Source: Bacteroidaceae bacterium | Lineage (GTDB): Bacteria; Bacteroidota; Bacteroidia; Bacteroidales; Bacteroidaceae | DNA length: 64,000 nucleotides | Assembly: GCA_017631315.1 (NCBI GenBank) | Contig: JAGBTN010000015.1 | Coordinates: 62,001 to 126,000, forward strand | Direction of reading: 5' to 3' | Shown: piece after piece, positions 47,331 to 63,168 of the stretch | Layout of the letters: each line of letters begins with the position of its first letter | How positions within the stretch are numbered: position 1 is the stretch's first letter | Position numbers and translations under genes: made by a program | Notes under the pieces: generated by a model | Told to the model about the DNA's origin: nothing | The model's database searches: none | What the model saw: only the letters and a program-made list of their open reading frames with translations

Positions 47331-47368
47331 ACGGAGAAAGTTGAAAAACTCTCTCCGTTTTCTTTTTT
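47329..47368 (+). terminator. Hairpin after attR, of the older element
   Basis: AAACGGAGA (47329-47337) pairs with TCTCCGTTT (47352-47360), then TCTTTTTT. Its placement matches the hairpin after attL, although the sequence differs. It was probably the tRNA-Leu terminator before the newer element arrived. Confidence 0.75.
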
Positions 47369-47628: not shown

Positions 47629-47644
47629 AATAATAGTAAATAAA

Positions 47645-47673
47645 AAAGTGTACCATTTTAAACGGTACACTTT
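47645..47673. terminator. Terminator hairpin downstream of the DUF4468-like gene
   Basis: AAAGTGTACC (47645-47654) pairs with GGTACACTTT (47664-47673). T-rich flanks occur on both strands. Confidence 0.8.
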
Positions 47674-47706
47674 CTTTTATGCCAAATTTTAATAAGATAA
47701 TTTTTT

Positions 47707-48270
47707 TTACCAATCTTCGTCCTCTGCTTGCATTTTTAGAATTTGGTTTATTAAGGCATTAAATTCCTCATTTACACTTAAACAAAACTCTTGTTTACCT
47801 TTTTTTGTACTATAAGTTCCATCGGACTTAAAAAACTTTTGTGCTTTGACCCACTCAGGAATGTTTGGCTGACTAGCTCCAGTGCTAAATGTTAGTAAAG
47901 AAAAATATGGAGCATCAACCTTAATTTTCCCATCTTTTATATGCATTTTTAGCACATAGTGAAAGTTTACCTCAACAGCACCTAACAGACCTCCAACATT
48001 CCAAATGATAGGCTGAACAGCATTAATACTAATTAGTTTGTTTTCAACATAACTGATAGTTTTCTGTGGATTATTGTATATAGATGATGCTGAAACAAGT
48101 AATTCTTGGTATAATTTTTCTTTTGTTTTTTCGGGAAAAGAAACCACTTGAGATGACTCTCCATTTTTTGTTAACATAGAACCATTGGGCTGCCATTCAA
48201 ATGTGACAAATTGTCCTTTTGCATTTATAATAGTAAAACTTACGATAAAAAATAACAATAATCTTTTCAT
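47707..48270 (-). CDS. Exported protein, possibly DUF4468-type
   Basis: 187 residues with a signal peptide (MKRLLLFFIVSFTIINAKGQ). The fold appears to be an alpha/beta repeat: FPEKTKEKLYQELLVSASSI, then FHYVLKMHIKDGKIKVDAPY, typical of the DUF4468 (TBP-like) exported proteins of Bacteroidetes. The family call is tentative. It has its own promoter (48337-48344) and terminator (47645-47673). AT-rich like the element, so it is probably cargo of the older, decayed element. Confidence 0.6.
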   Translation of the reverse strand: MKRLLLFFIVSFTIINAKGQFVTFEWQPNGSMLTKNGESSQVVSFPEKTKEKLYQELLVSASSIYNNPQKTISYVENKLISINAVQPIIWNVGGLLGAVEVNFHYVLKMHIKDGKIKVDAPYFSLLTFSTGASQPNIPEWVKAQKFFKSDGTYSTKKGKQEFCLSVNEEFNALINQILKMQAEDEDW

Positions 48271-48336
48271 ATAAAAATCAATTTATGTATTAAACTTTGT
48301 AATAAGAATATGTATGTGGTTTATTACACCACTTTG

Positions 48337-48344
48337 CAAATATA
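48337..48344 (-). promoter_or_regulatory. Promoter -7 box of the 47707 gene
   Basis: TATATTTG on the minus strand, 66 bp upstream of the start. Confidence 0.5.
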
Positions 48345-48426
48345 TCAATAAATCCGCTGTTCTAATGAAAATAACAAATAATTTTTTATATCAATAAGAT
48401 ATTTTAGATTAGTCTAATACAAAACG

Positions 48427-48472
48427 AATGTATCAATACGACCAAATTAAGGTTATATTGATACATTTTTTG
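48427..48472 (+). terminator. Isolated hairpin with T-run
   Basis: AATGTATCAAT (48427-48437) pairs with ATTGATACATT (48457-48467), followed by TTTTTG. No gene is seen immediately to its left on the plus strand. 48473-48660 holds no recognisable gene. Confidence 0.6.
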
Positions 48473-48663
48473 TTTATACGGTATTTACATCACTTTCATA
48501 TAGAGCCAAGCTATTTATTTGTTCGCATTTGGGAATGCGCCTTGACATCTGCTCCTTCTGTTTATGCAGAATACACTTTGCGGATATACAAAAAGACAAA
48601 GGAAAAGCCACCTGCCGTATGGAGCAATATATAGGTTTCAGCTTTATTTTGCCTTTGTGTCAT

Positions 48664-48783: not shown

Positions 48784-49595
48784 AAACGAGGCAGGTTGAA
48801 GGCGACGGACATCTCCTTCATCTGGGCATCGCTCATGCCTTCCGGCTCAAAGCCCATTGCCTTCGCACTCTGATATATCTTCGCACTCTTGGAAAGAACG
48901 TCTATCTGGTCGAAAGCATCCATGGCATCCAGGCCTTTGGCAAAGACTCCATGCTTCTCCCACATCACCACATCGTAGTCTTCCAACTCGCTAAGCGTGG
49001 CTTCTGCCAGGCAGTTGGAACCGGGCAAGGCGTAGCGGACTATGCCCAGACCGAGTGGGCAGAAAGCCTTCGTCTCAGGTATCATCGACCACAGAAGTTG
49101 CGTCAGGACATCCTTGCCCAGGAAAGCCGGATTGTGACTCATGGCCACCAGTTCTATGGGGTGTGTATGTACCGTTGCCCTATAAGGGGAACCTTTCTCT
49201 ATCAGACGGGCATGCACAGCAAGATGCGACGGCAACTCACTGGTAGGCATCACGGCCTGGTCGGCAATAATCACATAGGAAGCACAATCGTCGAGTATGC
49301 GGATAATCGACCCATTCTGCATAGGTTGGCGTGCAAGGTCGCGCATCCGTTTGCCCGTCCCCTTGCAATAGAAATAACAACCCCTTAAGGAAGGCAGAGT
49401 AATGCCTATCGGTTTCACCTCACTGATAGGCGGAAGCCGACGCACCTCCTCGTCGATGAGGTCAGTAACGTTCACCGTTATGTTGCCGCCATTGCGCTCC
49501 GCCCACCCGTTTTGCCACAGGTAGCCCGCAACTTCTGCCGTCTTTTCCACCTCACACTGCAAGGCCGGACGGCCGTCTAAAATGCTTTTCATCAT
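48780..49595 (-). CDS. rhaD: L-rhamnulose-1-phosphate aldolase
   Basis: 271 residues. RhaD splits rhamnulose-1-phosphate into dihydroxyacetone phosphate and lactaldehyde. The class II aldolase zinc ligands His143 and His145 (VHTHPIE) and His215 (EKHG) are visible, with the acidic residue Glu120 in TSELPSH. It is last of four genes transcribed from 53453 downward. Its final codons overlap the left copy of the lplA-promoter repeat, so the operon's 3' boundary is a rearrangement junction. Confidence 0.95.
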   Translation of the reverse strand: MMKSILDGRPALQCEVEKTAEVAGYLWQNGWAERNGGNITVNVTDLIDEEVRRLPPISEVKPIGITLPSLRGCYFYCKGTGKRMRDLARQPMQNGSIIRILDDCASYVIIADQAVMPTSELPSHLAVHARLIEKGSPYRATVHTHPIELVAMSHNPAFLGKDVLTQLLWSMIPETKAFCPLGLGIVRYALPGSNCLAEATLSELEDYDVVMWEKHGVFAKGLDAMDAFDQIDVLSKSAKIYQSAKAMGFEPEGMSDAQMKEMSVAFNLPRL

Positions 49596-49619
49596 GAATA
49601 TACTTATATATAATATAGA

Positions 49620-50657
49620 CTAAACTATCCATTGCGGTACAAAACTGGAGGCTATCAGAACAATAATGCCAACCACAAGAACCGCTATCGTTGCCCTGGA
49701 ACAACCCTTCCACTCGCCAAGAAGGACTCCCCACACGTTGGAGAATACAACATTGAGTGCCATAAGGATGCAGAAGGAAAGCGTATCCAGCGCACCACCC
49801 GCTTCAAAAAACGAACGGCCCAACGACAATCCGAAGAACTGACTGTACCACAAAGCACCAGCCAACAGGCAAAAGAACAGATTATTCTTCCACACTTCAG
49901 CCTTCCCATAGTCGCTCCAAGTCCCATTCCGTTGGTTCTGCCAGAAACAATACACGGCATTCGTAAAGAAACCGCCAATAGTAACAAGCAGCGTAGCAGG
50001 TAAAGTTCGGAACATAGGGTCTGTGAGAGAACCGAAATTAATATCCTTTCCAAACTCCAGACCCACATTGAAACAACCACTCATGAAGCCGGCAAGCAAA
50101 GCAATGGCCAGCCCCTTGGGGAAATTAAAGTCCCTTACTGCAATCTTCTTCTCTTCCTCGGACAAGGTTGACGCCTTCATCGAACCCGCAACACCAATGA
50201 CGGCAATACCTACAAGGGTAACGACAACGCCAAGAACAACAGCGAAAGTAAGCGACTCCAACGCACCAAGTTCCGGGAAAAACACATTCATCAGCACCGG
50301 CCCCATAATGGTTCCGAGAGCAGCACACGTGCCAAGAGCAATCGACTGGCCAAGAGCGACGCCAAGATAACGCATAGAAAGACCGAAAGTCAGACCACCA
50401 ATTCCCCATAAGATGCCAAAGAAAACCGTCATCCACAAGTTAAACGATGGCACAGAAGCAAACAGTCCCAACAACGATTCACCTGCCGGAACAGCAAGCA
50501 TCGCCCCCAAAAGCGGCAGCAAAAGCCAGGCAAACACACCTTGCACCACCCAGTATGATTCCCACGACCACTCCTTAATCCTGTTGATAGGAACATAACT
50601 GCTCGATTGGCACATGGCCCCTATTGCAATAATGATAAGCCCTATAATGGTTCCCAT
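49620..50657 (-). CDS. rhaT: L-rhamnose-proton symporter
   Basis: 345 residues with about ten hydrophobic spans; the RhaT family has the same size and topology. The family start is MGTIIGLIIIAIGAMCQSSS, followed by VPINRIKEWSWESYW, which matches 'xxPxxKxKxWSWEtyW' of RhaT. It imports L-rhamnose with protons. It sits between rhaD and the isomerase. Bacteroides thetaiotaomicron has the equivalent permease in its rhamnose cluster. Confidence 0.94.
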   Translation of the reverse strand: MGTIIGLIIIAIGAMCQSSSYVPINRIKEWSWESYWVVQGVFAWLLLPLLGAMLAVPAGESLLGLFASVPSFNLWMTVFFGILWGIGGLTFGLSMRYLGVALGQSIALGTCAALGTIMGPVLMNVFFPELGALESLTFAVVLGVVVTLVGIAVIGVAGSMKASTLSEEEKKIAVRDFNFPKGLAIALLAGFMSGCFNVGLEFGKDINFGSLTDPMFRTLPATLLVTIGGFFTNAVYCFWQNQRNGTWSDYGKAEVWKNNLFFCLLAGALWYSQFFGLSLGRSFFEAGGALDTLSFCILMALNVVFSNVWGVLLGEWKGCSRATIAVLVVGIIVLIASSFVPQWIV

Positions 50658-50669
50658 AAGACGTTTCTC

Positions 50670-51920
50670 CTATCGTTTGCTGGTTACATCCCTTTCATAC
50701 TGCTGGACAAGTTGTATGAACTCTTCGCCGATTGGCACATTGTTCTTCATGTTGAAGTAGTCATAGACTGCCCCAAATGGCATCGATTTCGCTTCCTCCA
50801 TCAGAGCGAGGCGTTCGAAGAGTTGGTCGTTGTCCTCATATTGTCGCAACATCTGCTTTGGTTCGAGCAAGGCTTGAAGTATGCATTTCTGCGTAGAACG
50901 CACCCCAATTATGTAAGCACCTATGCGATTGATGCTGGCATCGAAGTAGTCGAGGCCGACATGGGCACGGTCGAGAGCATCGGCACGTACGAGTTCCTTG
51001 AAGAGATCGAGCGTCTGATCGTTCATAATGGTCACGTGGTCGCTGTCCCAACGAACAGGACGACTGACATGGAGCATCAGTTCGGGAACATACATGAGCA
51101 GCGTCGAGACAAAGTCCGACACGTTTTCCGTGGGTTCGTAGTGACCTGTGTCGAGTGTATACATCTGCTTTCTTGTGGCACAATATGCAGTGTAGAAGTC
51201 GTGCGAGCCAACCGTATAGCTTTCCAAGCCTATGCCAAACAGTTTGGCTTCAAAGCAGTTCTTCACACCATCGAGTTTCTCTTCCATAATCTCGTCGAGC
51301 GACGCGGCAAGCAATTCACGGTATTTCTTGCGCTGCACAGGTACGTCTTTCGAGCCATCGTGCACCCAAATGTTCATGATGCATGGGTCGTTTTGTGCCT
51401 TTCCTATGGCGTCGGCTATGCGACGGCAACGCTTTGTGTGCTCTATCCAAAAGTCGCGGATGCTTTTGTCGGGGTTGGAAAGTGTGAGATTGCCACTCTT
51501 GGGATGTGAGAATGATGTGGAGTTGAAGTCGAGCTTCATGTTCATTTCTCTTGCCCAGTCTATCCAACTTTGGAAATGTTCTACGCCACATTCGTCGCGA
51601 TCTACGAACTTTCCGCCGAAATCGCCGTATATTTCGTGCAGGTTAAGGCGGTGGTTTCCGGCAAGAAGGGTTTTGACGAAAGCGATGTCCTGCCTTACTT
51701 CGTCGATGTTTCGGGCACGGCCGGGGTAGTTTCCGGTTGTCTGTATGCCGCCGGAGAGTGCTTCGTTGCGCTCGAAACCCATTACGTCGTCGGTCTGCCA
51801 GCAGTGGAGTGAGATTTGTTGGTTCTGCAGTAGTGCGAGGACTTCGTCTGTGTCGACACCGATGGTTGCATAGCGTTCTTTGGCTATGGCGTATGCCTTT
51901 TCGATATGTTCTTGTTTCAT
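50670..51920 (-). CDS. rhaA: L-rhamnose isomerase
   Basis: 416 residues. Converts L-rhamnose to L-rhamnulose, using divalent metal in a TIM barrel. Family blocks present are QISLHCWQTDDVMGFE near residue 50, LNLHEIYGDF and VDRDECGVEHFQSWIDWAR. KLDFNSTSFSHPKSGN and IWVHDGSKD follow. Length and start (MKQEHIEKAYAIAKERYATI) fit. 30 bp downstream of the kinase gene. Confidence 0.96.
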   Translation of the reverse strand: MKQEHIEKAYAIAKERYATIGVDTDEVLALLQNQQISLHCWQTDDVMGFERNEALSGGIQTTGNYPGRARNIDEVRQDIAFVKTLLAGNHRLNLHEIYGDFGGKFVDRDECGVEHFQSWIDWAREMNMKLDFNSTSFSHPKSGNLTLSNPDKSIRDFWIEHTKRCRRIADAIGKAQNDPCIMNIWVHDGSKDVPVQRKKYRELLAASLDEIMEEKLDGVKNCFEAKLFGIGLESYTVGSHDFYTAYCATRKQMYTLDTGHYEPTENVSDFVSTLLMYVPELMLHVSRPVRWDSDHVTIMNDQTLDLFKELVRADALDRAHVGLDYFDASINRIGAYIIGVRSTQKCILQALLEPKQMLRQYEDNDQLFERLALMEEAKSMPFGAVYDYFNMKNNVPIGEEFIQLVQQYERDVTSKR

Positions 51921-51950
51921 AATATTGTATTTGTTAGTTTGTTTTCGTTT

Positions 51951-53453
51951 TTATGCTTTGGCATTTACTATTTTGCAGTAGTGTTCGTAGGCTTCATCCC
52001 AAGCGGATTTGTCTTGTGGCTGATAGGTTTCTACCTTGACGCTGTTGCGGATGATGTGTCTCATCTGCCAGATATCGGCTACGACGCCTGCGGCTTTTGC
52101 CTGCAGCATGATGTTGCCGATGGCTGTACACTCTTGTGGTCCTGCCAGGACTTCTGTGTGGAGTGCGTTGGCAGTGAACTGGTTGAGGTATGGATTTTGC
52201 GAGCCTCCGCCGATGATGTGCAGGACATTGATGGGGAACGGGGCGAAGGTTTTGAGGAGTTCGAAGACTTGTCTGTAGCGGAGAGCCAGTGAGTCGAAGA
52301 TGCATCGGCATATCTCTGCCCGGGTCTGCGGCAGGGGTTGTGATGTCTGGCGGCAGTAGTTTTGGATGGCTTCCACCATGGATTCGGGGTTGGCGAAGGC
52401 GGCATCGTCGGGATTGATGATGCTGCGGAAGGCCTGGACCTGCATGGCGGCTTGCTGCAGGGTGTGGTGTGCGAGGTCGGTTGCGGCGTTGGGGTTGTTT
52501 GCATCTGCCTCTTTCCATTCCTTGCGGCAGCGTTCGTAGAGCCACATGCCACAGATGTTTTTCAGGAATCGTGTTGTGCCTTCTATGCCGCCTTCGTTGG
52601 TGAAGTTGCATGCGAGGCTTTGTGTGTTGATGATGGGCTGTGGGCTTTCTATGCCCATAAGGCTCCATGTTCCGCTGGAGAGGTAGGCGAAGTGTTCGTT
52701 GGCGGCTGGCACTGCGGCTACGGCGCTGCCGGTGTCGTGTCCGGCTACGGCTACGACGGGCAGGGGGCCCAAGCCCGTCTGCCGCTGCAGTTCTTCGCTG
52801 AGCGGGGCGACGATGGTGCCGGGGGCGACCATTGGGCCGAACTGATTGCGGTGCAGGCCTACGCTCTGGAGGAGTTCGTCGTCGAGGTCTCCGGTTCGGG
52901 GGTTGAGCAGTGCGGAGGTGGAGGCTATGGTGTATTCGCAGACTTCGTGCCCTGTGAGCATCCAGATGAGTGCGTCGGGCATGAAGAGCACTTTGTCGGC
53001 GTGGCGCAGTGCGCTGTTGTCGGCACGGTGCATGGCGTAGAGTTGGAAGAGGGAATTGAAGTTGAGGAACTGTATTCCGGTCTTCTCGTAGACCTTTTCG
53101 CGCGTGTTCACCTGCGCGAGATACTCGTCCATTGCGGGAATGGAGTGTGGGTCGCGGTATGCAAGGGGGTTGCGCAGAATCTGTTTGTCTTCGCCTATAC
53201 AGACGAAGTCTACGCCCCAGGTGTCGATGCCGATGCTCCGGATGGGCAGTTGCCGTTGTGCACAGAGTTTCAGTCCGCGCACGATTTCGCTGTAGAGGGC
53301 ATAGATGTCCCAATAGAAGTGTCCGCTGGTTTCGACGAGATTGTTGTCGAAGCGTGTCAGTTCCTCCAGTTCCAGTTCTCCGTTGCGCAGTGTTCCTATG
53401 ATGGTGCGGCCGCTTGTCGCTCCCAAATCCACTGCAAAAAAGGAGTTTTCCAT
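51951..53453 (-). CDS. rhaB: L-rhamnulokinase
   Basis: 500 residues of the FGGY sugar-kinase fold. It phosphorylates L-rhamnulose at C1. The N-terminal phosphate-binding motif FFAVDLGATSGRTIIG (4-19), the middle SIGIDTWGVDFVCIG, and GHDTGSAVAAVPA and GGGSQNPYLNQFTANAL near 420 are visible. It is first in the operon, 29 bp after a promoter with a perfect operator-like inverted repeat. Confidence 0.95.
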   Translation of the reverse strand: MENSFFAVDLGATSGRTIIGTLRNGELELEELTRFDNNLVETSGHFYWDIYALYSEIVRGLKLCAQRQLPIRSIGIDTWGVDFVCIGEDKQILRNPLAYRDPHSIPAMDEYLAQVNTREKVYEKTGIQFLNFNSLFQLYAMHRADNSALRHADKVLFMPDALIWMLTGHEVCEYTIASTSALLNPRTGDLDDELLQSVGLHRNQFGPMVAPGTIVAPLSEELQRQTGLGPLPVVAVAGHDTGSAVAAVPAANEHFAYLSSGTWSLMGIESPQPIINTQSLACNFTNEGGIEGTTRFLKNICGMWLYERCRKEWKEADANNPNAATDLAHHTLQQAAMQVQAFRSIINPDDAAFANPESMVEAIQNYCRQTSQPLPQTRAEICRCIFDSLALRYRQVFELLKTFAPFPINVLHIIGGGSQNPYLNQFTANALHTEVLAGPQECTAIGNIMLQAKAAGVVADIWQMRHIIRNSVKVETYQPQDKSAWDEAYEHYCKIVNAKA

Positions 53454-53481
53454 AGTATGTGTTTCGTTTGTTTTCCTGTTA

Positions 53482-53514
53482 CAAAGTTAGCATTTATTTC
53501 GATACGATGTATCG
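53482..53514 (-). promoter_or_regulatory. rha operon promoter and candidate operator
   Basis: TAACTTTG on the minus strand (53482-53489), with the perfect inverted repeat CGATAC-GAT-GTATCG (53500-53514) 10 bp upstream of it. This is a likely regulator site. Confidence 0.6.
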
Positions 53515-54096
53515 TCTGGTGCTGTAAAACATTCTTTTCCGCACCCTTTCGGCGAACAACCATCTTGCCATACGAGGAAGACAGACGAGATTCTTCTCTA
53601 AAAATCCGACTCAAAAGGCAAGTTATTGCAACAACCTTCTGCCAACAGTCCCGCTGCGGAAAACATGGCCTCGAACAGGAAAGATATTTACAAAACAAGG
53701 CTTCCGTTCCGACTCGAAATTGTGTAAAGAATTTTCCTCTCTGCCAAAATCGACGACGAAAAAGACGAACTCCGCCAACAAGCCACGCCTTCCCGTCCGA
53801 CAAGCCACAGCCTTCTGCCGGACAAGGCACGCCTGTTCAGCACTTTTGCCATGCCTTTCGGGCACAAAAAACGGGGCTTTTAGGGGCTTTTGGCACAGAT
53901 ATTTTACATTCCGCGAAAGCCAGTCCCTTGATAATCAAAGCGATGCCTCCAGGCAAAAGAACAGCATTTTCTCCCGCAAGCCATACGTCGGCAGAAAACA
54001 AGCCATTCTCCACCACCCAAAACAACGAAAAAGCACGACAACAACAGCCCAAGAGACTCTCACACACGGAATGGCTCTCATTTCACATCCCAACAA
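53515..54096. other. Gene-free region between the rha operon and the second direct repeat
   Basis: Short frames exist on both strands but none has family signatures, good starts or a promoter. No AraC-type regulator gene or gene remnant is recognised. Confidence 0.5.
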
Positions 54097-54216
54097 AATA
54101 ATCGTTAAAACATTTGGCTCTATTCGAAAATCTGCTAACTTTGTAGGCGGAACACTGCTAACAACGGCTTAAAAATCTAACACGACACCTCGAATGACCC
54201 ACATCACACTTCCTAC
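54097..54216 (+). repeat. Right copy of the 120-bp direct repeat, serving as the lplA promoter
   Basis: Contains TTTG (54113-54116), 19 bp, TAACTTTG (54136-54143) and the lplA ATG at 54194. About 89% identical to 48664-48783. Confidence 0.88.
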
Positions 54217-54919
54217 GGACGAAACACGCCGCCTTTCCTTCTATCTGGCGATGGAAGAATATGTGGCCTCCCAAAAAGGAGATTTAGAGGAGGCTTTCTT
54301 CCTCTGGCAAGTGGAGCCCACAGTCATCTTCGGCAGGCATCAGGTCATCGAAAACGAAGTGAACATCCCATACTGCTGCGAGCACGGCATACAATTCTAC
54401 CGCCGCAAAAGCGGAGGAGGCTGCGTCTATGCCGACAAGAGCAACGTCATGATGAGCTACATCACATGCTCCGACCACGTGAAAACCACATTCCAGGAAT
54501 ACATGCACATGGTCTGCTCCATGCTCCGGGAACTCGGACTGGAAGCAACATCCACAGAAAACAACGACATACTCATCGGCGGCCGAAAAGTCTCGGGCAA
54601 TGCCTTCTACCACCTCCCCGGACGAAGCATCGTACACGGCACAATGCTCTTCGACACCGACATGCAACACATGCTCCAGGCCATCACACCACCCACACAG
54701 AAACTCAACAAGCACGGCGTAGAAAGCGTACGCCAACGCATCACACTCCTCAAGGAACACACCAACCTCAGCATCGAACAATTCAAACAGTTCGCAGTCC
54801 GAAAACTCTGCAACAAAGAACTGCAACTCAACGCAGAAGACATCAAAAACATCGAAACCATTGAAAAAAAATACCTAAACACTGAATTCATCTATGGAAA
54901 AGAAAACCTGCCTCTATGA
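54194..54919 (+). CDS. lplA: Lipoate-protein ligase A-type enzyme
   Basis: 241 residues of the biotin/lipoate-ligase fold. The family motif RRKSGGGCVYAD (near 74-85) and the lysine-bearing RKVSGNAFYHLPGR near 130 are visible. The length suits the catalytic domain without the separate accessory domain. It overlaps gcvT by 26 bp and precedes gcvH, so its substrate is surely the lipoyl lysine of GcvH (Lys64). It could use free lipoate or octanoate; the sequence does not decide. Confidence 0.88.
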   Translation: MTHITLPTDETRRLSFYLAMEEYVASQKGDLEEAFFLWQVEPTVIFGRHQVIENEVNIPYCCEHGIQFYRRKSGGGCVYADKSNVMMSYITCSDHVKTTFQEYMHMVCSMLRELGLEATSTENNDILIGGRKVSGNAFYHLPGRSIVHGTMLFDTDMQHMLQAITPPTQKLNKHGVESVRQRITLLKEHTNLSIEQFKQFAVRKLCNKELQLNAEDIKNIETIEKKYLNTEFIYGKENLPL

Positions 54920-55973
54920 CCGCCACGTGGCACTCGGCGCACTCATGTCACCCTTTGGCGGCTTCATCATGCCAATTCAGTACACCAACATCACAGACGA
55001 ACACCACGCCGTACGCAACGATTGCGGTGTATTCGACGTAAGCCACATGGGCGAAGTGCGCATCACCGGCCCCGACGCCGAACGATACGTTCAACACATC
55101 TTCACTAACGACATCGCCGGAGCACCAGTCGGACAAATCTACTACGGCATGATGCTCTACCCAAACGGCGGCACTGTCGACGACCTCCTCGTCTACAAAA
55201 TGGGCGAAAACGACTTCTTCCTCGTCATCAATGCCGCTAACATCGACAAAGATGTCGACTGGATGAAACAACACGCCACAGGCTTCAACATCAACCTCGA
55301 ACACCAAAGCGACCAATACGGACAACTCGCCGTGCAAGGACCACAAGCAGAAACCGTCGTAGAAGAAGTGCTCGGCATACCATGCAGAGAACTCAAATTC
55401 TACACAACCAAAGTTGTGGGCGACCTCATCGTCAGCCGCACAGGCTACACAGGCGAAGACGGATTCGAAATCTACGGCACACACCAATTCACACAACAGG
55501 CCTGGGACAAACTCATCCAAAGCGGCCGCTGCAAACCCTGTGGACTTGGATGCCGAGACACCCTGCGCTTCGAAGTCGGACTCCCACTCTACGGCGACGA
55601 ACTCAGCGCAGACATCTCACCCGTCATGGCAGGCCTCTCCATGTTCTGCAAACTCGACAAACCCGAATTCATCGGCAAAGAAGCCCTCGAAGAACAGAAA
55701 GCAAACGGCGTCGAACAGAAACTCGTCGGCATAGAACTCACAGACAAAGCCATACCACGCCACGGCTACCCCGTCCTCAACGCAGAAGGCGAACAAGTGG
55801 GCGAAGTAACAACCGGATACCACTGCCTCAGCGTCGACAAAAGCGTCTGCATGGCACTCGTCAAAACAAACTATGCAAAACTCGACACAACCCTCTACAT
55901 CCAAATAAGAAAGAAAGTATTCGAGGGCAAAGTAGTAAAGAAAAAATTCTATGACAAACATTATAAAAAATAA
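54894..55973 (+). CDS. gcvT: Glycine cleavage system aminomethyltransferase (T protein)
   Basis: 359 residues. GcvT transfers the methylene group from aminomethyl-H protein to tetrahydrofolate and releases ammonia. The folate-binding pattern includes VFDVSHMGEVRITGPDAE, YTGEDGFEIYG near 190 and GLGCRDTLRFEVGLPLYGDE. Overlaps lplA by 26 bp and is 7 bp upstream of gcvH. The C-terminal half has a strong skew to C-rich codons, like gcvH. Confidence 0.96.
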   Translation: MEKKTCLYDRHVALGALMSPFGGFIMPIQYTNITDEHHAVRNDCGVFDVSHMGEVRITGPDAERYVQHIFTNDIAGAPVGQIYYGMMLYPNGGTVDDLLVYKMGENDFFLVINAANIDKDVDWMKQHATGFNINLEHQSDQYGQLAVQGPQAETVVEEVLGIPCRELKFYTTKVVGDLIVSRTGYTGEDGFEIYGTHQFTQQAWDKLIQSGRCKPCGLGCRDTLRFEVGLPLYGDELSADISPVMAGLSMFCKLDKPEFIGKEALEEQKANGVEQKLVGIELTDKAIPRHGYPVLNAEGEQVGEVTTGYHCLSVDKSVCMALVKTNYAKLDTTLYIQIRKKVFEGKVVKKKFYDKHYKK

Positions 55974-55980
55974 GTAAACT

Positions 55981-56358
55981 ATGGCTAAATTTGAAGAAGG
56001 ACTCCGCTACAGCGAGTCACACGAGTACATTCGCGTTGAAGGTGAATACGGTTATATTGGCATCTCCGACTATGCCCAGCACGCACTCGGCAACGTTGTC
56101 TACGTCGACATGCCAGAAGTGGACGACGAAGTAACAGCAGGCGAAGAGTTCGGAGCCGTGGAAAGCGTCAAGGCAGCCAGCGACCTTATCTCCCCCGTAA
56201 GCGGCACAGTTGTCGAAATCAACGAAGCTCTCGAAGACACTCCCGAGCTCCTGAACGAAGACGCCTTTGCCAACTGGATTATCAAAGTAAAACTCTCCGA
56301 CCCATCAGAACTCGACAAACTGATGGATGCCGAAGCATACAAAACAATCTGCAACTAA
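55981..56358 (+). CDS. gcvH: Glycine cleavage system H protein
   Basis: 125 residues, standard length. Lipoyl-lysine Lys64 is in FGAVESVKAASDLISPVSG. It carries the aminomethyl group between the P, T and L proteins. The other landmark is GISDYAQHALGNVVYVDMPE. Between gcvT and gcvPA with 7- and 11-bp gaps, one operon. Confidence 0.97.
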   Translation: MAKFEEGLRYSESHEYIRVEGEYGYIGISDYAQHALGNVVYVDMPEVDDEVTAGEEFGAVESVKAASDLISPVSGTVVEINEALEDTPELLNEDAFANWIIKVKLSDPSELDKLMDAEAYKTICN

Positions 56359-56369
56359 CCCAAACCACC

Positions 56370-57719
56370 ATGTTCAAGTACTTCCCTCACACAGAGGAAG
56401 ACCTGCAGGAGATGCTCAAGGCAACCGGAGTAGAGAGCATACACAACCTCTTCGACGACATACCTGAGCCTGCAAGGTTCAAGAGGGACTACAATTTGCC
56501 CGAAGCCCTCTCAGAAACCGACCTGCGACTCTTCTTCAATCAACTGACAGCACCGCACAACACCCGTCAACTCGTCTGTTTCGCCGGTGCAGGATGCTAC
56601 GACCATTACGCTCCAAGCGTAGTGCAAAACATCATCCAACGCTCAGAGTTCCTGACATCATATACACCCTATCAGGCCGAAATATCACAAGGAACACTCC
56701 ATTACATCTTTGAATACCAGTCAATGATTGCAGAGTTGACAGGCATGGACATTGCCAACGCTTCGATGTACGACGGCGCAACCGCAACGGCAGAGGCAGC
56801 CATTATGGCATGGGGCAATGCCAAGAAAGCAACTCGTGTGCTGGTAAGTGAGACATTAGACCCAAAGATTCGGCGTGTTGTGGAGACCTATGCACACTTC
56901 AACGGCTTTCCCATCAAACTCGTACCCGCTGTCAATGGTGCCATCGACCGCAACGCTCTCGATCAAGAACTTGCAGAAGGAGGCGTGGCAGGGCTCATCG
57001 TTCAGCAACCCAACTACTACGGCATCGTCGAAGACTACACAGGAATTGCCGACAAAATCCACGAGCAGAAAGGTATTTTCGTTGTGAATGCCAATCCCAG
57101 CGACCTGGCAATCCTGAAGACGCCTGCAGAGTGGGGAGCTGACGTGGCAGTAGGCGAAGGCCAAAGTCTTGGTATTCCCATGACCTTCGGAGGCCCCGGA
57201 GTTGGCTATATGGCTTGTACAGAAAAGCTGATGCGAAAGCTTCCGGGACGCATTGTGGGGCAGACTCTCGACAATCGTGGGCAGCGTGCCTTCGTCTTGA
57301 CCTTGCAGGCCAGGGAGCAACACATACGTCGCCAGAAGGCAACCTCCAATATATGTTCTAACCAAAGCCTCATGGCGTTGTACGTTACGATATACCTCAG
57401 TCTCATGGGTAAAGAGGGTCTTCGCGAGGTTGCCGAGATGAGTTATGCCGGAGCGCACTGCCTTCGCGACAAACTTGTTGCAACAGGCAAGTTCAAGGAT
57501 ACTTTCCCGGGACAGCCTTTCTTCAATGAATTCTGTGTCGATTACGAGGGATATCTCGATGCACTCCTTGATGAATGTACTGCAAACGGCTACCTTGCCG
57601 GCATAAAGATTAGTGAAAAGACGCTTATGTTGGCTGTCACGGAACAGCGTTCGCCGGAGGAGATTGACGAACTTGTCGATATTATTCAACAATTTAAGAC
57701 GGAGGAGGCAGAGGTATGA
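56370..57719 (+). CDS. gcvPA: Glycine decarboxylase (P protein) subunit 1
   Basis: 449 residues, the non-catalytic-lysine half of the split P protein. Characteristic blocks are FAGAGCYDHYAPSVVQNI, SMYDGATATAEAAIMA and TFGGPGVGYMACTEKLMRKLPGR. Together with GcvPB it forms the PLP enzyme that decarboxylates glycine onto GcvH. The stop overlaps the gcvPB start by 4 bp (ATGA), ensuring equal synthesis of both halves. Confidence 0.96.
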   Translation: MFKYFPHTEEDLQEMLKATGVESIHNLFDDIPEPARFKRDYNLPEALSETDLRLFFNQLTAPHNTRQLVCFAGAGCYDHYAPSVVQNIIQRSEFLTSYTPYQAEISQGTLHYIFEYQSMIAELTGMDIANASMYDGATATAEAAIMAWGNAKKATRVLVSETLDPKIRRVVETYAHFNGFPIKLVPAVNGAIDRNALDQELAEGGVAGLIVQQPNYYGIVEDYTGIADKIHEQKGIFVVNANPSDLAILKTPAEWGADVAVGEGQSLGIPMTFGGPGVGYMACTEKLMRKLPGRIVGQTLDNRGQRAFVLTLQAREQHIRRQKATSNICSNQSLMALYVTIYLSLMGKEGLREVAEMSYAGAHCLRDKLVATGKFKDTFPGQPFFNEFCVDYEGYLDALLDECTANGYLAGIKISEKTLMLAVTEQRSPEEIDELVDIIQQFKTEEAEV

Positions 57720-59233
57720 ACAGAACATTATATGGGAACCTCATCTTCGAGTTGTCGAAGAAGGGACGCAAGGGTTATTCTTTGCCACAAGATTATGACC
57801 GCACTCACACTACGGCGGAACTGCCCGAGGCCTTGCGCCGAAAGGAAGCAGCAAGGCTGCCCGAGTGCGATGAGTTGACGGTTGTGCGTCACTACACGAA
57901 CCTCAGTCATAACAATTTCGGTGTGAACGATGGTTTCTATCCGCTTGGTTCGTGCACAATGAAGTACAATCCCATTATAAACGAAGAGATTGCCGGAATG
58001 AAGGCCTTCGCCGGATTGCATCCTCTGCAGCCGGCTGTGACCTGCCAAGGTGCGCTGGAGGTTTATTATAACTTGCAGCAATCGCTTGCCGAGCTTGCCG
58101 GATTGAGCGAATTCACTTTGAATCCTTGTGCCGGTGCACACGGTGAGTTGACCGGTTTGATGGTGATTCGTGCTTATCATGAAAGCCGAGGGGACAGTGG
58201 CCGCACCAAGGTTCTCATCCCCGACTCTGCCCACGGCACGAATCCTGCTTCGGCGGCTGTCTGCGGTTTGGAGGTTGTGGAGGTTAAAAGCCTTGCCGAC
58301 GGCACTGTAGATGTAGAGCATCTGCGCCAACTTCTGAATGAGATGGGTGGCGAAGTGGCAGGCATGATGATGACCAATCCCAATACCTTAGGTATTTTCG
58401 AGCCGCAGGTTCTGGAGATTACGGAGATGGTTCATGAGGCAGGTGGCTTGATGTATTATGACGGTGCGAACCTCAATGCGCTGCTCGGCGAATGTCGTCC
58501 CGGCGACATGGGCTTCGACGTGATGCACATCAACCTGCACAAGACTTTCTCCACGCCTCATGGTGGCGGTGGCCCGGGCAGTGGCCCTGTCGGTGTACGC
58601 GAGGGTCTGGAGCAGTTCCTGCCTACGCCTCGTGTCAACAAGGTTGTTGTGAACTACGACGGCGATAATGAGCCTTACGAATGGATAGGCTATATCATCG
58701 ACTGGGGAACCGACTCCTCGCTCGGCAGCGTGGGCAGTTTCTTCGGAAACTTTGCTGTGATGCTGAAGGCATATGCCTACATCCTGTCGCTCGGAAGCGA
58801 GAACATCAAGCAGGTTGGCCCACTGGCAACACTGAATGCGAACTACATCAAGGAGTGCCTGAAGGGCGACTATCTGTTGCCAATCGGCGGGCTATGCAAG
58901 CACGAAGTGGTCTTCGACGGGCTCGTAGACAAGAGTTCCGGCGTCACTACAATGGATGTTGCCAAGCGTCTTCTGGACTATGGATACCATGCTCCGACCA
59001 TCTATTTCCCGTTGCTTTTCCATGAAAGTCTGATGATTGAGCCAACGGAGAACGAGAGCAAGGAGACCATCGACGCCTTCATCGACGTGATGCACAAGAT
59101 TGCAGAGGAGGCCAAGACAGATCCTGAACTGGTGAAGACGGCACCACACAACACACCAATCGGCCGTGTGGACGACGTGCTGGCAGCCAAACAACCTGTA
59201 ACAACCTACTGGAAGTCTATTGCTGATTCCTAA
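57716..59233 (+). CDS. gcvPB: Glycine decarboxylase (P protein) subunit 2
   Basis: 505 residues. The PLP lysine is Lys276 in HINLHKTFSTPHGGGGPG. Other blocks are NPCAGAHGELTGLMVIRAY and DSAHGTNPASAA. The split P protein is normal for this phylum. Coupled to gcvPA by a 4-bp overlap and followed by lpd after 27 bp. Confidence 0.97.
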   Translation: MNRTLYGNLIFELSKKGRKGYSLPQDYDRTHTTAELPEALRRKEAARLPECDELTVVRHYTNLSHNNFGVNDGFYPLGSCTMKYNPIINEEIAGMKAFAGLHPLQPAVTCQGALEVYYNLQQSLAELAGLSEFTLNPCAGAHGELTGLMVIRAYHESRGDSGRTKVLIPDSAHGTNPASAAVCGLEVVEVKSLADGTVDVEHLRQLLNEMGGEVAGMMMTNPNTLGIFEPQVLEITEMVHEAGGLMYYDGANLNALLGECRPGDMGFDVMHINLHKTFSTPHGGGGPGSGPVGVREGLEQFLPTPRVNKVVVNYDGDNEPYEWIGYIIDWGTDSSLGSVGSFFGNFAVMLKAYAYILSLGSENIKQVGPLATLNANYIKECLKGDYLLPIGGLCKHEVVFDGLVDKSSGVTTMDVAKRLLDYGYHAPTIYFPLLFHESLMIEPTENESKETIDAFIDVMHKIAEEAKTDPELVKTAPHNTPIGRVDDVLAAKQPVTTYWKSIADS

Positions 59234-59260
59234 TGTTCAATGGTCAATGTTCAACAGTCA

Positions 59261-60520
59261 ATGAATAACACAGACCTCATCATCATAGGAGCCGGTCCGG
59301 GTGGCTATAAGGCTGCTGTCTATGCGGCAAAGAAAGGGCTCAAAGTCACGGTGTTTGAAGATGCCAATGTTGGTGGAACCTGCCTGAATGTGGGTTGTAT
59401 TCCGACGAAGACCTACGTACATTCCGCCACCTTCGGCGAAGCCATAGAGCGACAAGAGCAAGTGGTGAGCGCATTGCGAGGCGGTGTGGAGACATTGCTT
59501 TCGCACCCAAACATCACTCTGATTCGCGAGAAAGGCGTCTTCACCGACGCACAAACAGTGAATGGCATTACGGCAAAACACATCATCATCGCCACGGGCA
59601 GCAGCGCAAAGGTGCTGCCCATTCCCGGAGCAGACAGTCCGAAGGTGGTGACCTCCACCGAACTGCTCGCCCTCAAGGAACTGCCCAAGAGACTCTGCAT
59701 CATTGGTGCCGGCGTCATCGGCATGGAGTTTGCGAGCGTGTTCCAGAGGTTCGGTTCGGAAGTAACCGTGGTGGAGTATCTGAAGGAGTGCTTGCCCATG
59801 CTGGACAGCGACATAGCCAAGCGCCTGCGCAAACTGATGGAGAAGCGTGGCATCGCCTTCTACATGGGAGCAGGCGTGAAGAGCATCGACGGCCCAGCCG
59901 TCCTCTTTGAGCAGAAAGGCAAGGAGGTGAGCGTGGAGGCCGACTATGTGCTGATGGCAACAGGCCGCAAACCGAACACCGAAGGCCTTAACCTCGAAGC
60001 AGCAGGCATCAGCCTTGCGCCCAATGGCACCATCCCCGTCGACGAGCACTTCAGGACCCTTAGCGGCCAATGTTACGCCATTGGCGACGTCAACGGACGG
60101 CAGATGCTGGCACATGCGGCAGAGATGCAAGGCATCCACGTAGTGAACAGGATTCTCGGCATCGAGGACAACATACGCTTCGACATCATGCCTGCAGCCA
60201 TCTTCACCAACCCCGAAGCCGCCCTCGTAGGGCCTTCGGAAGACCAACTGAAGGAGGCAGGCACACCCTTCGAGTGCCACAAGGCCTTCTATCGTGCCAA
60301 TGGCAAGGCACTGGCCATGGGCGAAACGGAAGGAATGGTCAAACTCTGCTGCGAACCCGAAGAAGGGAAACTGCTCAGCGCACACATCTTCGGCGCACAC
60401 GCCGCCGACCTCGTGCAGGAAGTAACAGCATACATCACACTCGGAGCCACACTCCGTCAACTCCGCGAGACAGTGCACATCCACCCCACCCTCTCGGAGG
60501 TACTCATCGAAGTGAACTGA
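59261..60520 (+). CDS. lpd: Dihydrolipoyl dehydrogenase (L protein)
   Basis: 419 residues from the ATG at 59261 (MNNTDLIIIGAGPGGYKAAV). The FAD motif GAGPGG, the redox-active pair Cys41-Cys46 in GGTCLNVGCIPTK, and the C-terminal His/Glu pair in VHIHPTLSEVL are present. The protein is about 40-50 residues shorter than most E3 enzymes. An in-frame start at 59240 would add VNVQQS from a TTCAATG-like repeat and is less likely. It reoxidises GcvH and completes the glycine cleavage operon. Ends with a strong array-derived terminator. Confidence 0.93.
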   Translation: MNNTDLIIIGAGPGGYKAAVYAAKKGLKVTVFEDANVGGTCLNVGCIPTKTYVHSATFGEAIERQEQVVSALRGGVETLLSHPNITLIREKGVFTDAQTVNGITAKHIIIATGSSAKVLPIPGADSPKVVTSTELLALKELPKRLCIIGAGVIGMEFASVFQRFGSEVTVVEYLKECLPMLDSDIAKRLRKLMEKRGIAFYMGAGVKSIDGPAVLFEQKGKEVSVEADYVLMATGRKPNTEGLNLEAAGISLAPNGTIPVDEHFRTLSGQCYAIGDVNGRQMLAHAAEMQGIHVVNRILGIEDNIRFDIMPAAIFTNPEAALVGPSEDQLKEAGTPFECHKAFYRANGKALAMGETEGMVKLCCEPEEGKLLSAHIFGAHAADLVQEVTAYITLGATLRQLRETVHIHPTLSEVLIEVN

Positions 60521-60553
60521 CAAGGCTGCAAACACCACAGCCTATATGAAAAT

Positions 60554-60641
60554 AATGGTTAACCATTCTGCCCGGAAAGGTTAACCATTATTGCAAAAAG
60601 GGTTAACCTTTCCAGACGAAATGGTTAACCCTTTTTTGCGT
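60554..60641. repeat. 22-bp phased palindrome array 6
   Basis: Four units beginning ATGGTTAACC, AAGGTTAACC, AGGGTTAACC and ATGGTTAACC lie at exact 22-bp spacing just after lpd. Confidence 0.88.
60595..60637 (+). terminator. Terminator of the gcv operon, built from two array units
   Basis: AAAAAGGGTTAACC (60595-60608) pairs with GGTTAACCCTTTTT (60623-60636), and the T-run follows. The two stems are adjacent array units. Confidence 0.88.
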
Positions 60642-60655
60642 GTTCGCTAACTGTC

Positions 60656-61612
60656 TTATTTCAGAAGCTTTACGGAGAGTTTCTCCAGCATATCCTTCGT
60701 CATCTCGTCAAGACCGAACTTCGGCGCCCAATCCCACTCCTGGCGAGCACAACTGTCGTCCATCATGTTGGGCCAAGACTCGGCAATCGACTGCTTCAAG
60801 GGGTCCACATCGTAAACCATCTCGAACTCCGGCTTGTACTTTCTGATGTTCTCCAAAATCATTTCGGGGTCGAAACTCATGGCAGCAATGTTGAAACCAT
60901 TGCGGTGTTTCAGGCGAGAAGGATCGGCCTCCATAAGCATCTGTGCCGCCTGAAGCGCATCGGGCATGTACATCATGTCCATGTGTGTGCCGGCCTTGAT
61001 GGGGCAAGTAAAACGCTCACCACGGACAGCATAGTAATAAATGTCAACAGCATAGTCCGTAGTACCACCACCCGGAGGCGTAACATAAGAAATGATGCCC
61101 GGGAAACGTACGCTGCGCGTATCCACACCATACTTGTGGAAATACCAGTCGCTCAACAATTCCGTCGTCACCTTCGATACACCATAGATGGTTCGGGGGC
61201 GCTGCACAGTGTCCTGGGGCGTCATGTCGTGTGGCGTTTCATGGCCAAACGAACCGATGGAACTGGGCGTAAACACCGCACACTTGTTCTCACGAGCAAT
61301 CTCAAGCGTATTCCAAAGACCATCAATGCCAATCTGCCAGGCCAGACGGGGCTTCGACTCGGCAACCACCGACAGCAGAGCCGCCAGATTATAGATGGTG
61401 TCGATGTTGTACTTCTTCACAGCATCGGCAATACTCTGCGCATTGATAACGTCGGTAACGGCACACGGACCGCTCTCCAACAACTCGCCTTTCGGCTCGG
61501 CACCAGGAATATAACCGGCCACAACATGTTCGTTTCCGTAAATTCCCCTGAGGTGCATGGCCAGTTCAGAACCTATCTGACCTGTAGAACCAATAATAAG
61601 AATGTTTTTCAT
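60656..61612 (-). CDS. L-threonine 3-dehydrogenase, SDR family
   Basis: 318 residues of the extended short-chain dehydrogenase fold. The NAD motif GSTGQIGSEL (8-17), catalytic Ser in TPSSIGSFG, Tyr143 and Lys147 (IYGVSK) are visible. The C-terminal substrate region contains GTTDYAVDIYYYAV, then YMPDALQAA. This SDR-type threonine dehydrogenase oxidises threonine to 2-amino-3-ketobutyrate. Divergent from kbl, which uses that product, so the pair is a functional unit. A generic epimerase is the alternative, but the pairing makes threonine dehydrogenase much more likely. Confidence 0.9.
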   Translation of the reverse strand: MKNILIIGSTGQIGSELAMHLRGIYGNEHVVAGYIPGAEPKGELLESGPCAVTDVINAQSIADAVKKYNIDTIYNLAALLSVVAESKPRLAWQIGIDGLWNTLEIARENKCAVFTPSSIGSFGHETPHDMTPQDTVQRPRTIYGVSKVTTELLSDWYFHKYGVDTRSVRFPGIISYVTPPGGGTTDYAVDIYYYAVRGERFTCPIKAGTHMDMMYMPDALQAAQMLMEADPSRLKHRNGFNIAAMSFDPEMILENIRKYKPEFEMVYDVDPLKQSIAESWPNMMDDSCARQEWDWAPKFGLDEMTKDMLEKLSVKLLK

Positions 61613-61643
61613 TCGGTTACTGAAAGTTTAGATTTTACGGCTG

Positions 61644-61651
61644 CAAAATTA
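61644..61651 (-). promoter_or_regulatory. Promoter -7 box of the threonine dehydrogenase gene
   Basis: TAATTTTG on the minus strand, 31 bp upstream of the start at 61612. Confidence 0.55.
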
Positions 61652-61802
61652 CATAAATTCTGCGAGATACAAAACGAACACAGCCAAGAAAATAAACAAT
61701 CAACAGAAGAAAAATCAAACAAACAGCAGACTTCACAATTTTACCCGAAACTTTTCACACATTTTTAATGCATAATCCACCAACTATTTCACAACTATTT
61801 CG

Positions 61803-61810
61803 TACCTTTG
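61803..61810 (+). promoter_or_regulatory. kbl promoter -7 box
   Basis: TACCTTTG, 36 bp upstream of the kbl ATG. Confidence 0.6.
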
Positions 61811-61846
61811 CACAAGCATTACAACAAACCTTAAACCCTATATACT

Positions 61847-63034
61847 ATGTACGGAAAGATGAAACAGCATCTCAGCCAGACGCTTGCTGAGATTCGCGAA
61901 GCAGGACTCTACAAAGAAGAGCGTCTCATAGAAAGCCCACAGCAGGCAGCCATTCAAGTGAAAGGTCAGGAAGTACTGAACTTCTGCGCCAACAACTACC
62001 TCGGACTCTCCAACCATCCCCGCCTCATCGAAGGTGCTACCAAGATGATGCAGCAACGAGGATTCGGCATGTCCAGCGTACGATTCATCTGCGGAACGCA
62101 GGACATTCACAAGCAACTCGAAGCAGCCATCAGCGAATACTTCCAGACAGAAGACACCATTCTCTATGCCGCATGCTTCGATGCCAACGGCGGCGTGTTC
62201 GAACCCCTCCTTACGGAAGAAGACGCCATCATCAGCGATGCACTCAACCACGCATCCATCATCGACGGCGTACGCCTTTGTAAAGCAAAACGCTACCGCT
62301 ATGCCAACGCCAACATGGAAGAACTGGAGAAGTGTCTGCAAGAAGCACAGGCACAGCGTTTCCGCATCATCGTCACCGACGGCGTGTTCTCCATGGACGG
62401 CAACGTAGCACCTATGACACAGATATGCGACCTTGCCGAGAAGTACGACGCACTCGTCATGGTGGACGAAAGCCATTCGGCCGGCGTTGTAGGCAAGACC
62501 GGTCACGGCGTAAGCGAACTCTGCGACACCTACGGACGCGTGGATATCTACACCGGCACACTGGGCAAAGCCTTCGGCGGCGCACTGGGCGGCTTCACCA
62601 CAGGCCGCAAGGAAATCATCGACCTGCTGCGCCAGCGTTCACGTCCCTACCTCTTCTCCAACTCACTTGCTCCATGCATCATCGGCGCATCGCTCGAGGT
62701 CTTCAAGATGCTTAAGGAGTCAAACGAACTGCACGACCGCCTGGTGGAGAACGTGAACTACTTCCGCGACAAGATGATAGCAGCCGGCTTCGACATCAAG
62801 CCAACACAGAGTGCCATTTGCGCCGTGATGCTCTACGATGCAAAGCTCTCGCAAGTGTTCGCCGCAAAGATGCAGGAAGAAGGCATCTACGTGACAGGTT
62901 TCTACTATCCCGTCGTTCCGAAAGGCGAAGCACGCATCCGCGTACAACTCTCCGCCGGCCATGAGCGCGAACACCTCGACAAGTGCATAGCCGCCTTCGT
63001 CAAGGTCGGAAAAGAACTTGGCGTACTGAAGTAA
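61847..63034 (+). CDS. kbl: Glycine C-acetyltransferase (2-amino-3-ketobutyrate CoA ligase)
   Basis: 395 residues. Kbl cleaves 2-amino-3-ketobutyrate with CoA to glycine and acetyl-CoA. It is a PLP enzyme of the alpha-oxoamine synthase group: Lys241 in YTGTLGKAFGGALGGF, the cofactor region VDESHSAGVVGKTGHGVSE, and FCANNYLGLSNHPRL near residue 47. The glycine made here can be degraded by the gcv operon 1.2 kb to the left. Confidence 0.96.
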   Translation: MYGKMKQHLSQTLAEIREAGLYKEERLIESPQQAAIQVKGQEVLNFCANNYLGLSNHPRLIEGATKMMQQRGFGMSSVRFICGTQDIHKQLEAAISEYFQTEDTILYAACFDANGGVFEPLLTEEDAIISDALNHASIIDGVRLCKAKRYRYANANMEELEKCLQEAQAQRFRIIVTDGVFSMDGNVAPMTQICDLAEKYDALVMVDESHSAGVVGKTGHGVSELCDTYGRVDIYTGTLGKAFGGALGGFTTGRKEIIDLLRQRSRPYLFSNSLAPCIIGASLEVFKMLKESNELHDRLVENVNYFRDKMIAAGFDIKPTQSAICAVMLYDAKLSQVFAAKMQEEGIYVTGFYYPVVPKGEARIRVQLSAGHEREHLDKCIAAFVKVGKELGVLK

Positions 63035-63058: not shown

Positions 63059-63168
63059 ACAATGGTGTGGCTAATAAACAAGAAAGGTTAACCATTATCG
63101 CAATAAAGGTTAACCTTTCTTCGTGTAATGGTTAAGCATTCCGGGCAGAATGGTTAACCATTATTTTA
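63059..63168. repeat. 22-bp phased palindrome array 7
   Basis: Five units beginning ATGGTGTGGC, AAGGTTAACC, AAGGTTAACC, ATGGTTAAGC and ATGGTTAACC at exact 22-bp spacing between the ends of kbl and recQ. Confidence 0.88.

Follow-up and report, generated by a model that had tools for sequence, protein, structure and literature searches.

Why would a gut bacterium keep four short palindromic units, spaced exactly 22 bp apart, in the gap between two of its genes, and do so again at many other places on its chromosome? The question is raised by the array at 60554 of the DNA analysed here, a window of 64,000 nucleotides (positions 62001-126000 of contig C15) from the draft genome of an uncultured gut bacterium (G000; 2.68 Mb, 87% complete). 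The lpd-like gene beside this array has its best named match, among the best 80 of 143, in L018, a roe-deer colon Bacteroidaceae MAG (96% protein identity). A preliminary description of the window had listed seven arrays built on a 12-bp palindrome with a 22-bp period; all seven were found at the positions given, and three further 22-bp arrays had been overlooked (Table 1). The palindrome is commoner than chance, since GGTTAACC occurs 15 times in the window as against a mean of 0.64 and a maximum of 3 in 100 shuffles. Genome-wide, the pair GGTTAACC-N14-GGTTAACC is present 105 times in the draft, its reversed control 0 times.

Arrays were further analysed in a 464-kb sample, made up of the window and 20 stretches of 20 kb chosen mostly for containing arrays, and in a hold-out set of 20 further places. 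Genes were called with a custom script based on open reading frames and codon usage. Compared with G000 were G023, its closest relative within the same genus, and L018, a near relative that is perhaps the same species as G023. The window also encodes, at 9220-12573 and 12979-16248, adjacent BspA-type LRR proteins with Peptidase_M60 domains.

Table 1. Arrays and other features of the window, in positions counted from its first nucleotide
Feature	Position	Context
GGTTAACC array, 4 units	60554..60641	between convergent lpd-like and epimerase-like genes; orthologous array in L018
Array, 3 units (GGTGTGCC, GGTTAAGC, GGTTAACC)	2138..2203	
Array, 5 units, two of them GGCGTGCC/GGCACGCC	8097..8206	
Array, 3 units	12718..12799	
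Array, 4 units	16443..16520	
Array, 4 units	23861..23937	
Array, 5 units	63059..63168	between convergent aminotransferase and RecQ-domain genes; orthologous array in L018 lacks one unit
22-bp array of another family (AAGCCACGCCTT)	53771..53834	
22-bp array with TTCTGCGGAGAA core	38820..38902	edge of recombinase segment; out of register (~9 bp)
22-bp array with TTCTGCAGAGAA-type core	30102..30165	
Longest stretch of the window with an 11.0-bp AA/TT phase within ~4 to 111 degrees	49006..61876	several genes
Two resolvase-family genes and a weak Rep_trans match	38601..48600	without 11.0-bp rhythm (z -1.8)

The period is exact. Between the 115 GGTTAACC sites of the 464-kb sample there are 93 distances of at most 140 bp, and all 93 are 22 (45 cases), 44 (27), 66 (19) or 88 bp (2), as the reported concentration at 22 bp would have it. 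The variants said to keep the phase are real (GGTTAAGC, GCTTAACC, CCTTAACC, GGTACACC and GGYGTGCC), and the dyads lie at multiples of 11 bp, in keeping with the suggestion that the sites look to one face of the DNA. Counting in-phase variants, 32 of the 44 G000 arrays with at least two units have exactly four (12 of 17 hold-out arrays with at least three), and, as had been stated for the window, none of the 44 lies within a gene called by our script. What had to be given up is the fixed 12-bp palindrome: the unit consists of an 8-bp core, two exchangeable 5-bp flanks and a 4-bp middle, and its halves vary independently. The types of half-site (flank plus half core) are few, the leading ones being ATAATGGTT (73 of 342), GGAAAGGTT (28) and ATAATGCTT (25), and they include ATAATGG, GGAAAGG, ATAATGC and AAAACCC. 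In the 32 four-unit arrays left and right halves are combined freely, none of 16 flank pairings being clearly above permutation (one had p 0.03, seven leaned to avoidance with values above 0.95). Copying of whole arrays was considered for G000 and rejected, because the arrays are no more alike than shuffled units (maximum 35/42, mean maximum after shuffling 34.9). Since the halves are independent and the arrays are not copies of one another, the half-sites behave as protein sites do. The 14-bp spacers between cores are mostly distinct (109 among 129), some being shared between loci; the outer edges carry A tracts at the left and T tracts at the right, and beyond the array the flank information dies out within ~30 bp.

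For the recent evolution of the arrays, 27 orthologous regions were aligned between G000 and either G023 or L018, of which 25 were counted; the other two concern an array absent in G023 and one with inverted units. Substitutions per site were 0.027 in the core, 0.090 in the flanks, 0.276 in the middle and 0.082 in the outer edges, as compared with 0.133 in intergenic DNA and 0.040, 0.030 and 0.139 at the three codon positions. The core thus changes as slowly as second codon positions, and the middle of the spacer twice as fast as intergenic DNA. Indels numbered 6 in 1790 array sites and 60 in 6477 intergenic sites, the latter including the loss of three units at L110:15315, which the script counted there; protection does not extend to the outer 6-bp edges (3 in 291 sites). 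The six array indels were one whole 22-bp unit, one 23-bp insertion at an array edge and four single bases. The constrained core, the fewer indels and the near-fixed unit number agree with the proposal that selection acts on the period and that slippage does not account for it. Spacers can be inverted: of 72 compared between orthologues 3 clearly were, 55 were not and 14 were ambiguous. At L098:17906 and L116:12359, compared with G023, single 14-bp spacers or inner units are inverted, as in hairpin-loop inversion.

G000 and G023 also have a rhythm of AA/TT dinucleotides, which is too faint to be spotted by eye. It was measured as the autocorrelation of AA/TT at lags of 200-2000 bp, with z taken against the autocorrelation's own scatter, and gave a peak at 11.00 bp with z of 21.0 in G000 and 20.5 in G023 (fine period 10.995 bp, half height 10.985-11.010). 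It persists when the arrays are masked (z 21.7), and both genomes still have it when the lag is raised to 3-4 kb (z 3.6 each). Synonymous shuffling within genes lowers z from 19.8 to 6.8-8.1, and since the rhythm survives in part, this part must be independent of codon choice within genes. Over long range the signal of coding DNA alone (z 13.2) exceeds that of noncoding DNA alone (z 1.4), perhaps because the noncoding pieces are short. A 50-kb stretch of E. coli K-12 treated in the same way has no line at 11.0 (best 10.8, z 3.9). The difference AA minus TT has no clear 22-bp line (z at 22.0 of 1.8 in G000 and 2.2 in G023; best periods 22.05 with z 4.4 and 10.98 with z 4.6), so that a dimer asymmetry of the rhythm is not borne out.

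Within the window the rhythm is present in positions 1-38600 (z 12.8) and 48601-64000 (z 16.5); the segment between them, which carries the recombinase and Rep-like genes and lacks the rhythm, is probably an acquired element. Two other stretches of G000 without the rhythm are L103 (G000:C1:100001-120000; z 0.6, 0 array cores), with Schlafen-AlbA, helicase and HAD/Zn-ribbon genes and perhaps a defence island, and L108 (G000:C3:120001-140000), with open reading frames of 3850 and 1726 aa, one of which has an M26-type N-terminal domain. A rhythm near 11 bp, found in coding DNA and missing from segments that look foreign (as judged from their gene content), belongs with the ~11-bp periodicity of A tracts and dinucleotides in genomes, which is persistent, led by AA/TT, found in coding and noncoding DNA and generally absent from phage DNA (PMC3431218, PMC4132750, PMC1242344, PMC7537859); in E. 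coli it is said to reach at least 1000 bp (PMC7537859). The present rhythm differs from it by its sharp line at 11.00 bp, by its reach of 3-4 kb, by its presence in a few of the sampled species of the genus and by its lock to palindrome arrays. Among 18 other species of the genus it was found in G034 (z 10.0) and G008 (z 4.9) and was absent in 16; L018, L027 and L035 have it as well. One of 13 loci from other families of the order, L159 (20 kb), has a peak at exactly 11.00 bp (z 5.0), from which the sharp rhythm may occur outside the genus.

Arrays and rhythm are in register. In G000 and G023 the array dyads stand about 5.5 bp from AA/TT maxima, with p of 7e-10 at 40-340 bp, 6e-11 at 640-1240 bp and 4e-4 at 1840-2440 bp, the two flanks of an array counting as independent. 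Both genomes keep a significant lock out to 2.4 kb, and G000 a weak one out to 3.6 kb (p 0.03); beyond 2.4 kb in G023 (p 0.46) and beyond 3.6 kb in G000 (p 0.84) it is absent. The settings of the test, AT content at a period of 11.0 in four windows, were fixed before the hold-out arrays were scored; their 32 flanks gave p of 0.004, 0.04, 0.006 and 0.18, and their phases differed from those of the discovery set by no more than ~40 degrees. No register was seen with stop codons far from arrays as control anchors (370 flanks), and flanks that are less than half coding have the lock (53 flanks, p 2e-8). At 110-710 bp both genomes also have a lock at periods of 22/3 and 5.5 bp, and G000 has one at 22 bp (p 0.003; p 0.05 in G023), whereas there is none at 4.4, 7, 8 or 10.5 bp; the pattern around the arrays therefore has a 22-bp component.

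The offset recurs with unrelated palindromes. In G034, with array centres chosen by script, it is alike within 600 bp (R 0.72, p 2e-4; 16 flanks of 8 arrays), and for arrays with other cores in rhythm-bearing species R is 0.49 (p 0.0075, 20 flanks), some being off by 2-4 bp: L027 has 7.4-9.7 on 4 of 5 flanks, L145 has 1.3 and 7.9. The window's array of another family, 53771..53834, has AA/TT maxima ~5 bp from its centre on both sides, the centre being poorly defined (palindrome score 0.47). Outside arrays, positions in phase have an AA/TT density of 0.147, those out of phase one of 0.106 (p 8e-21). In 26 aligned pairs AA/TT is lost equally in phase (273/1696) and out of phase (198/1227), a comparison of limited power (about 2 sigma by estimate), and is gained more often in phase (0.026 vs 0.019, p 8e-4), which looks more like a phase-dependent bias of mutation or gain than like selection against loss. 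Rhythm power drops only slightly with distance from the arrays (bins 1.93, 2.38, 1.92, 1.87, 1.80, 1.77; Spearman -0.11, p 1e-4), so that the arrays may be following the rhythm and not setting it. Per stretch, the number of array cores goes with the strength of the rhythm (Spearman 0.49, p 0.03 in G000; less clearly, 0.41, p 0.07 in G023), yet L127 of G023 has a strong rhythm (z 9.0) and 0 array cores, and in most of the sampled species with arrays, G012, G002, G011, G016 and G022 among them, there is no rhythm of kilobase range.

The sequence of the palindrome is not what relatives have in common. Among 60 of them the 22-bp GGTTAACC pair was found only in G023 (112 pairs). Just past the stop codon of the lpd-like gene, 8 of 25 relatives examined have a lag-22 array with another core, and regions with a lag of 21 or 22 bp occur in 13 of 20 genomes of the genus (1.16 Mb, coding rows included). 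When long open reading frames were removed and lags of 12-41 bp compared, the noncoding DNA held 29 lag-22 regions in G000, 30 in G023, 32 (and 9 at lag 21) in 20 other species of the genus, 19 (and 2) in L019-L052, 9 (and 4) in the Prevotella-named loci L053-L097 and none in the 42 kb of noncoding DNA from 20 genomes of other families, with at most 2 regions per group at every other lag. No noncoding array of lag 21 or 22 was listed in the 6-14 kb covered of each of the isolate records L056, L057, L058, L067, L079 and L092; a lag-22 stretch of L058 is part of a long open reading frame. Palindrome centres, sought blind to sequence, cluster at multiples of 11 in G000, in the other species of the genus, where 8 more are found at 21, and in L019-L052; there is no cluster in the Prevotella-named loci or in other families. 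Three palindrome families were tested across 11 genomes of the genus, and each was limited to a single species: the hairpin unit of G012 (205 + 202 copies), the core pair of G016 (8) and the unit of G002 (34 + 33) each had 0 copies in the 10 other genomes. Searched by exact core, G012 has four units at 21 bp in 16 of 17 arrays examined, whose five-base loops belong to a small set and occur in both orientations; G002 has four units in 8 of 10. The palindrome, real as it is in this genome, was therefore too narrow a definition of the element; what is conserved is the geometry of palindromic units of 21 or 22 bp. That each species has its own palindrome suggests a specificity that drifts together with its sites.

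We propose, at what we judge to be even chances, that the arrays are platforms for a putative multi-dimer DNA-binding protein that fixes the register of chromosome packing. A protein of several dimers within an extended nucleoprotein structure is suggested by the independent half-sites, the two-turn units with a near-fixed number of four, the constrained core with its fast-changing middles, and the register. Each array would be an intergenic binding platform of ~90-110 bp with four dyad-symmetric sites 22 bp apart, that is, eight alternating half-sites, one per 11-bp turn. A dimeric or oligomeric protein would bind the four sites and fix the rotational register of a nucleoprotein structure with 11.0 bp per turn, which would reach into both flanks, genes included, and of which the faint AA/TT rhythm would be the imprint. 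A fixed bound structure that biases mutation could yield the higher gain of AA/TT in phase. The sequence of the half-site would shift between species with the specificity of the protein, the geometry being retained. We infer the protein, its oligomeric form and a setting, not a following, of the register by the arrays; the geometry and its conservation, the constraint on the core, the species-specific cores and the register itself are shown by the data given above.

A more far-reaching version, which we regard as tentative and at clearly less than even chances, has the whole chromosome coated by a dimeric filament with an exact footprint of 22 bp (2 x 11), nucleated at about a hundred arrays, with its register coded in the sequence. 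Such a filament would keep the same register over kilobases and generations and so leave a mutational imprint in genes, and species would rewrite the palindrome as the specificity of the protein drifts; it would amount to a bacterial chromatin.

That the arrays are a dispersed selfish repeat of the REP, BIME or MITE kind, which spreads lineage by lineage and has no host role, is unlikely in our judgement, although their families are species-specific and their positions poorly conserved. Inspected by eye, GGTTAACC arrays follow the aminotransferase gene in 2 of 29 readable loci (30 were compared, one being incomplete) and precede MiaB in 2 of 30, in both cases only in G000 and G023; from these two genes, arrays are also gained or lost. 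At L236 the aminotransferase gene is followed by a 22-bp array of another family (by eye), and at L224 and L225, from two species, by a different kind of array, with repeats of ~40 bp (GCACGCCAAGG..). An ordered set of units common to some G012 arrays, in either direction, would likewise suit a spreading element. The G000 arrays, however, resemble one another no more than their shuffled units do, their core is strongly constrained and in register with the 11-bp rhythm, and the sole array missing from G023 is missing without a clean insertion. A viral origin was also considered and dropped, as the 22-bp pair occurs in 20 of 2.9 million IMG/VR contigs, by estimate near chance.

Of described repeats, REPs and BIMEs are alike in being many short intergenic palindromes in species-specific families (PMC3733652). 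REPs end in GTAG or CGTC, and those with GTAG accompany RAYT genes (PMC3733652). Neither tag is a constant part of the array units or edges as judged by eye, and the Y1_Tnp family (PF01797) has 0 matches in G000 (87% complete), control genomes giving matches in 5 of 14; with no transposase found, a RAYT-REP system was rejected for G000. To our knowledge a strict 22-bp spacing and a number of four units are not features of REPs. BrickBuilt of Porphyromonas gingivalis, a minisatellite/MITE with intergenic tandem units of 23 nt at 19 loci, comes close in belonging to the Bacteroidales, in its near-equal unit length and in imperfect units with conserved and variable halves (PMC4596501). When the window was scanned for its unit AGAYCATARTATCCTCTCRTRTG, allowing up to 3 mismatches, there were 0 matches. 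BrickBuilt itself ranges from 1 to 22.8 units and has a leader and a tail segment with IS5-like ends (PMC4596501); it is not described as keeping to four units, as changing its core while the period stays, or as being in register with a genomic rhythm.

We consider it quite unlikely that the arrays are bidirectional intrinsic terminators or RNA hairpins at 3' ends, formed in the transcript by two palindromes at a time, their outer A/T tracts serving as U tails in both directions. In tandem gene pairs they do stand close behind the upstream stop codon (median distance 52 bp in G000 and 37 bp in G023) and well before the next start (166 and 156 bp), and in G000 the downstream edge is followed by a run of at least five T in 11 of 21 tandem cases. 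Ordinary stem-loop terminators were recognised by eye at several of the orthologous sites in other species, and the array at 60554 has one paired change in its last hairpin. However, no effect of gene direction on the T tracts is seen: 11 of the 21 upstream edges have such runs too, and in G000 and G023 together the longest T run averages 4.28 on the downstream side as against 4.10 on the upstream side (p 0.50). A chain of hairpins, suggested by the array at 60554, where every unit has a left flank complementary to the right flank of the unit after it, did not hold as a rule, flank complementarity being not above permutation in the 32 four-unit arrays. The 40 arrays with both neighbours comprise 23 in tandem, 11 in convergent and 6 in divergent gene pairs, the last of these counting against a terminator; among gaps of 120-600 bp, arrays occupy 8 of the 20 convergent ones, 19 of the 49 tandem ones and 5 of the 30 divergent ones. 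Termination is also silent on the 22-bp spacing and on the register over kilobases. Rfam at gathering score finds two tRNAs in the window and no match at the arrays.

Two turns of underwound DNA measure 22 bp. It is nonetheless very unlikely, as we see it, that the bare DNA suffices, curved and underwound at 11.0 bp per turn, most strongly curved at the arrays, and pinning supercoil loops without a dedicated protein. This explanation meets the period, can draw on the genomic ~11-bp periodicity known before, and fits G012 well, whose arrays are flanked by phased T tracts that decay without a sharp terminus and are predicted to be strongly bent (203 degrees, against 70 when column-shuffled). The prediction, made with wedge values of roll, tilt and twist, makes the G000 arrays only moderately bent (78 vs 59 degrees, mean percentile 0.71), and G002, G001, G015 and G022 (9, 1, 1 and 1 arrays) are not above the null. 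Intrinsic curvature as a common denominator was therefore rejected: it holds for G012, to a moderate degree for G000 and G016, and fails for four other species, with G016, G001, G015 and G022 represented by one or two arrays each. Exact palindromes and sequences peculiar to each species are left unexplained by it.

A neutral minisatellite that arises by slippage and is homogenised through gene conversion and hairpin-loop inversion is hardly credible, for although complete units have been gained or lost (one at 63064 and three at L110:15315) and a few spacers are inverted, the arrays mostly have four units, no off-phase spacing, a constrained core beside a spacer middle that outpaces intergenic DNA, and a register over kilobases. 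Plain terminators, RAYT-REPs and slippage thus all fit poorly.

CRISPR loci have repeats of 24-48 bp with unique, regularly sized spacers between them (PMC3733652). The present arrays differ in that their 8-bp cores vary and their 14-bp spacers partly recur between loci. The preliminary description knew of no element with these properties, and excerpts from the open-licence PMC literature, searched for the element, the rhythm and the filament, contain no match, neither species-specific 22-bp palindrome arrays nor any arrays locked to the ~11-bp periodicity.

Plasmid iterons are direct repeats that offer protein sites ~22 bp apart on one face of the DNA; here, to go by the counts of pairs and sites, there would be roughly a hundred arrays on the chromosome. 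Sites of the parS, MatS and Noc type are palindromic, distributed over the chromosome and organise it. They are single sites with a widely conserved sequence, whereas the arrays have four units with cores specific to the species.

A rhythm with the helical period has long been known in bacterial genomes, and its cause is not agreed upon. In this genus the rhythm is sharp, is present in some species and not in others, and is tied to discrete elements, so that its cause becomes testable. The rhythm might also serve to detect foreign DNA. Since the sequence of the arrays turns over fast and their geometry does not, searches by sequence similarity would miss them. The arrays behave as if they marked the register of chromosome packing.
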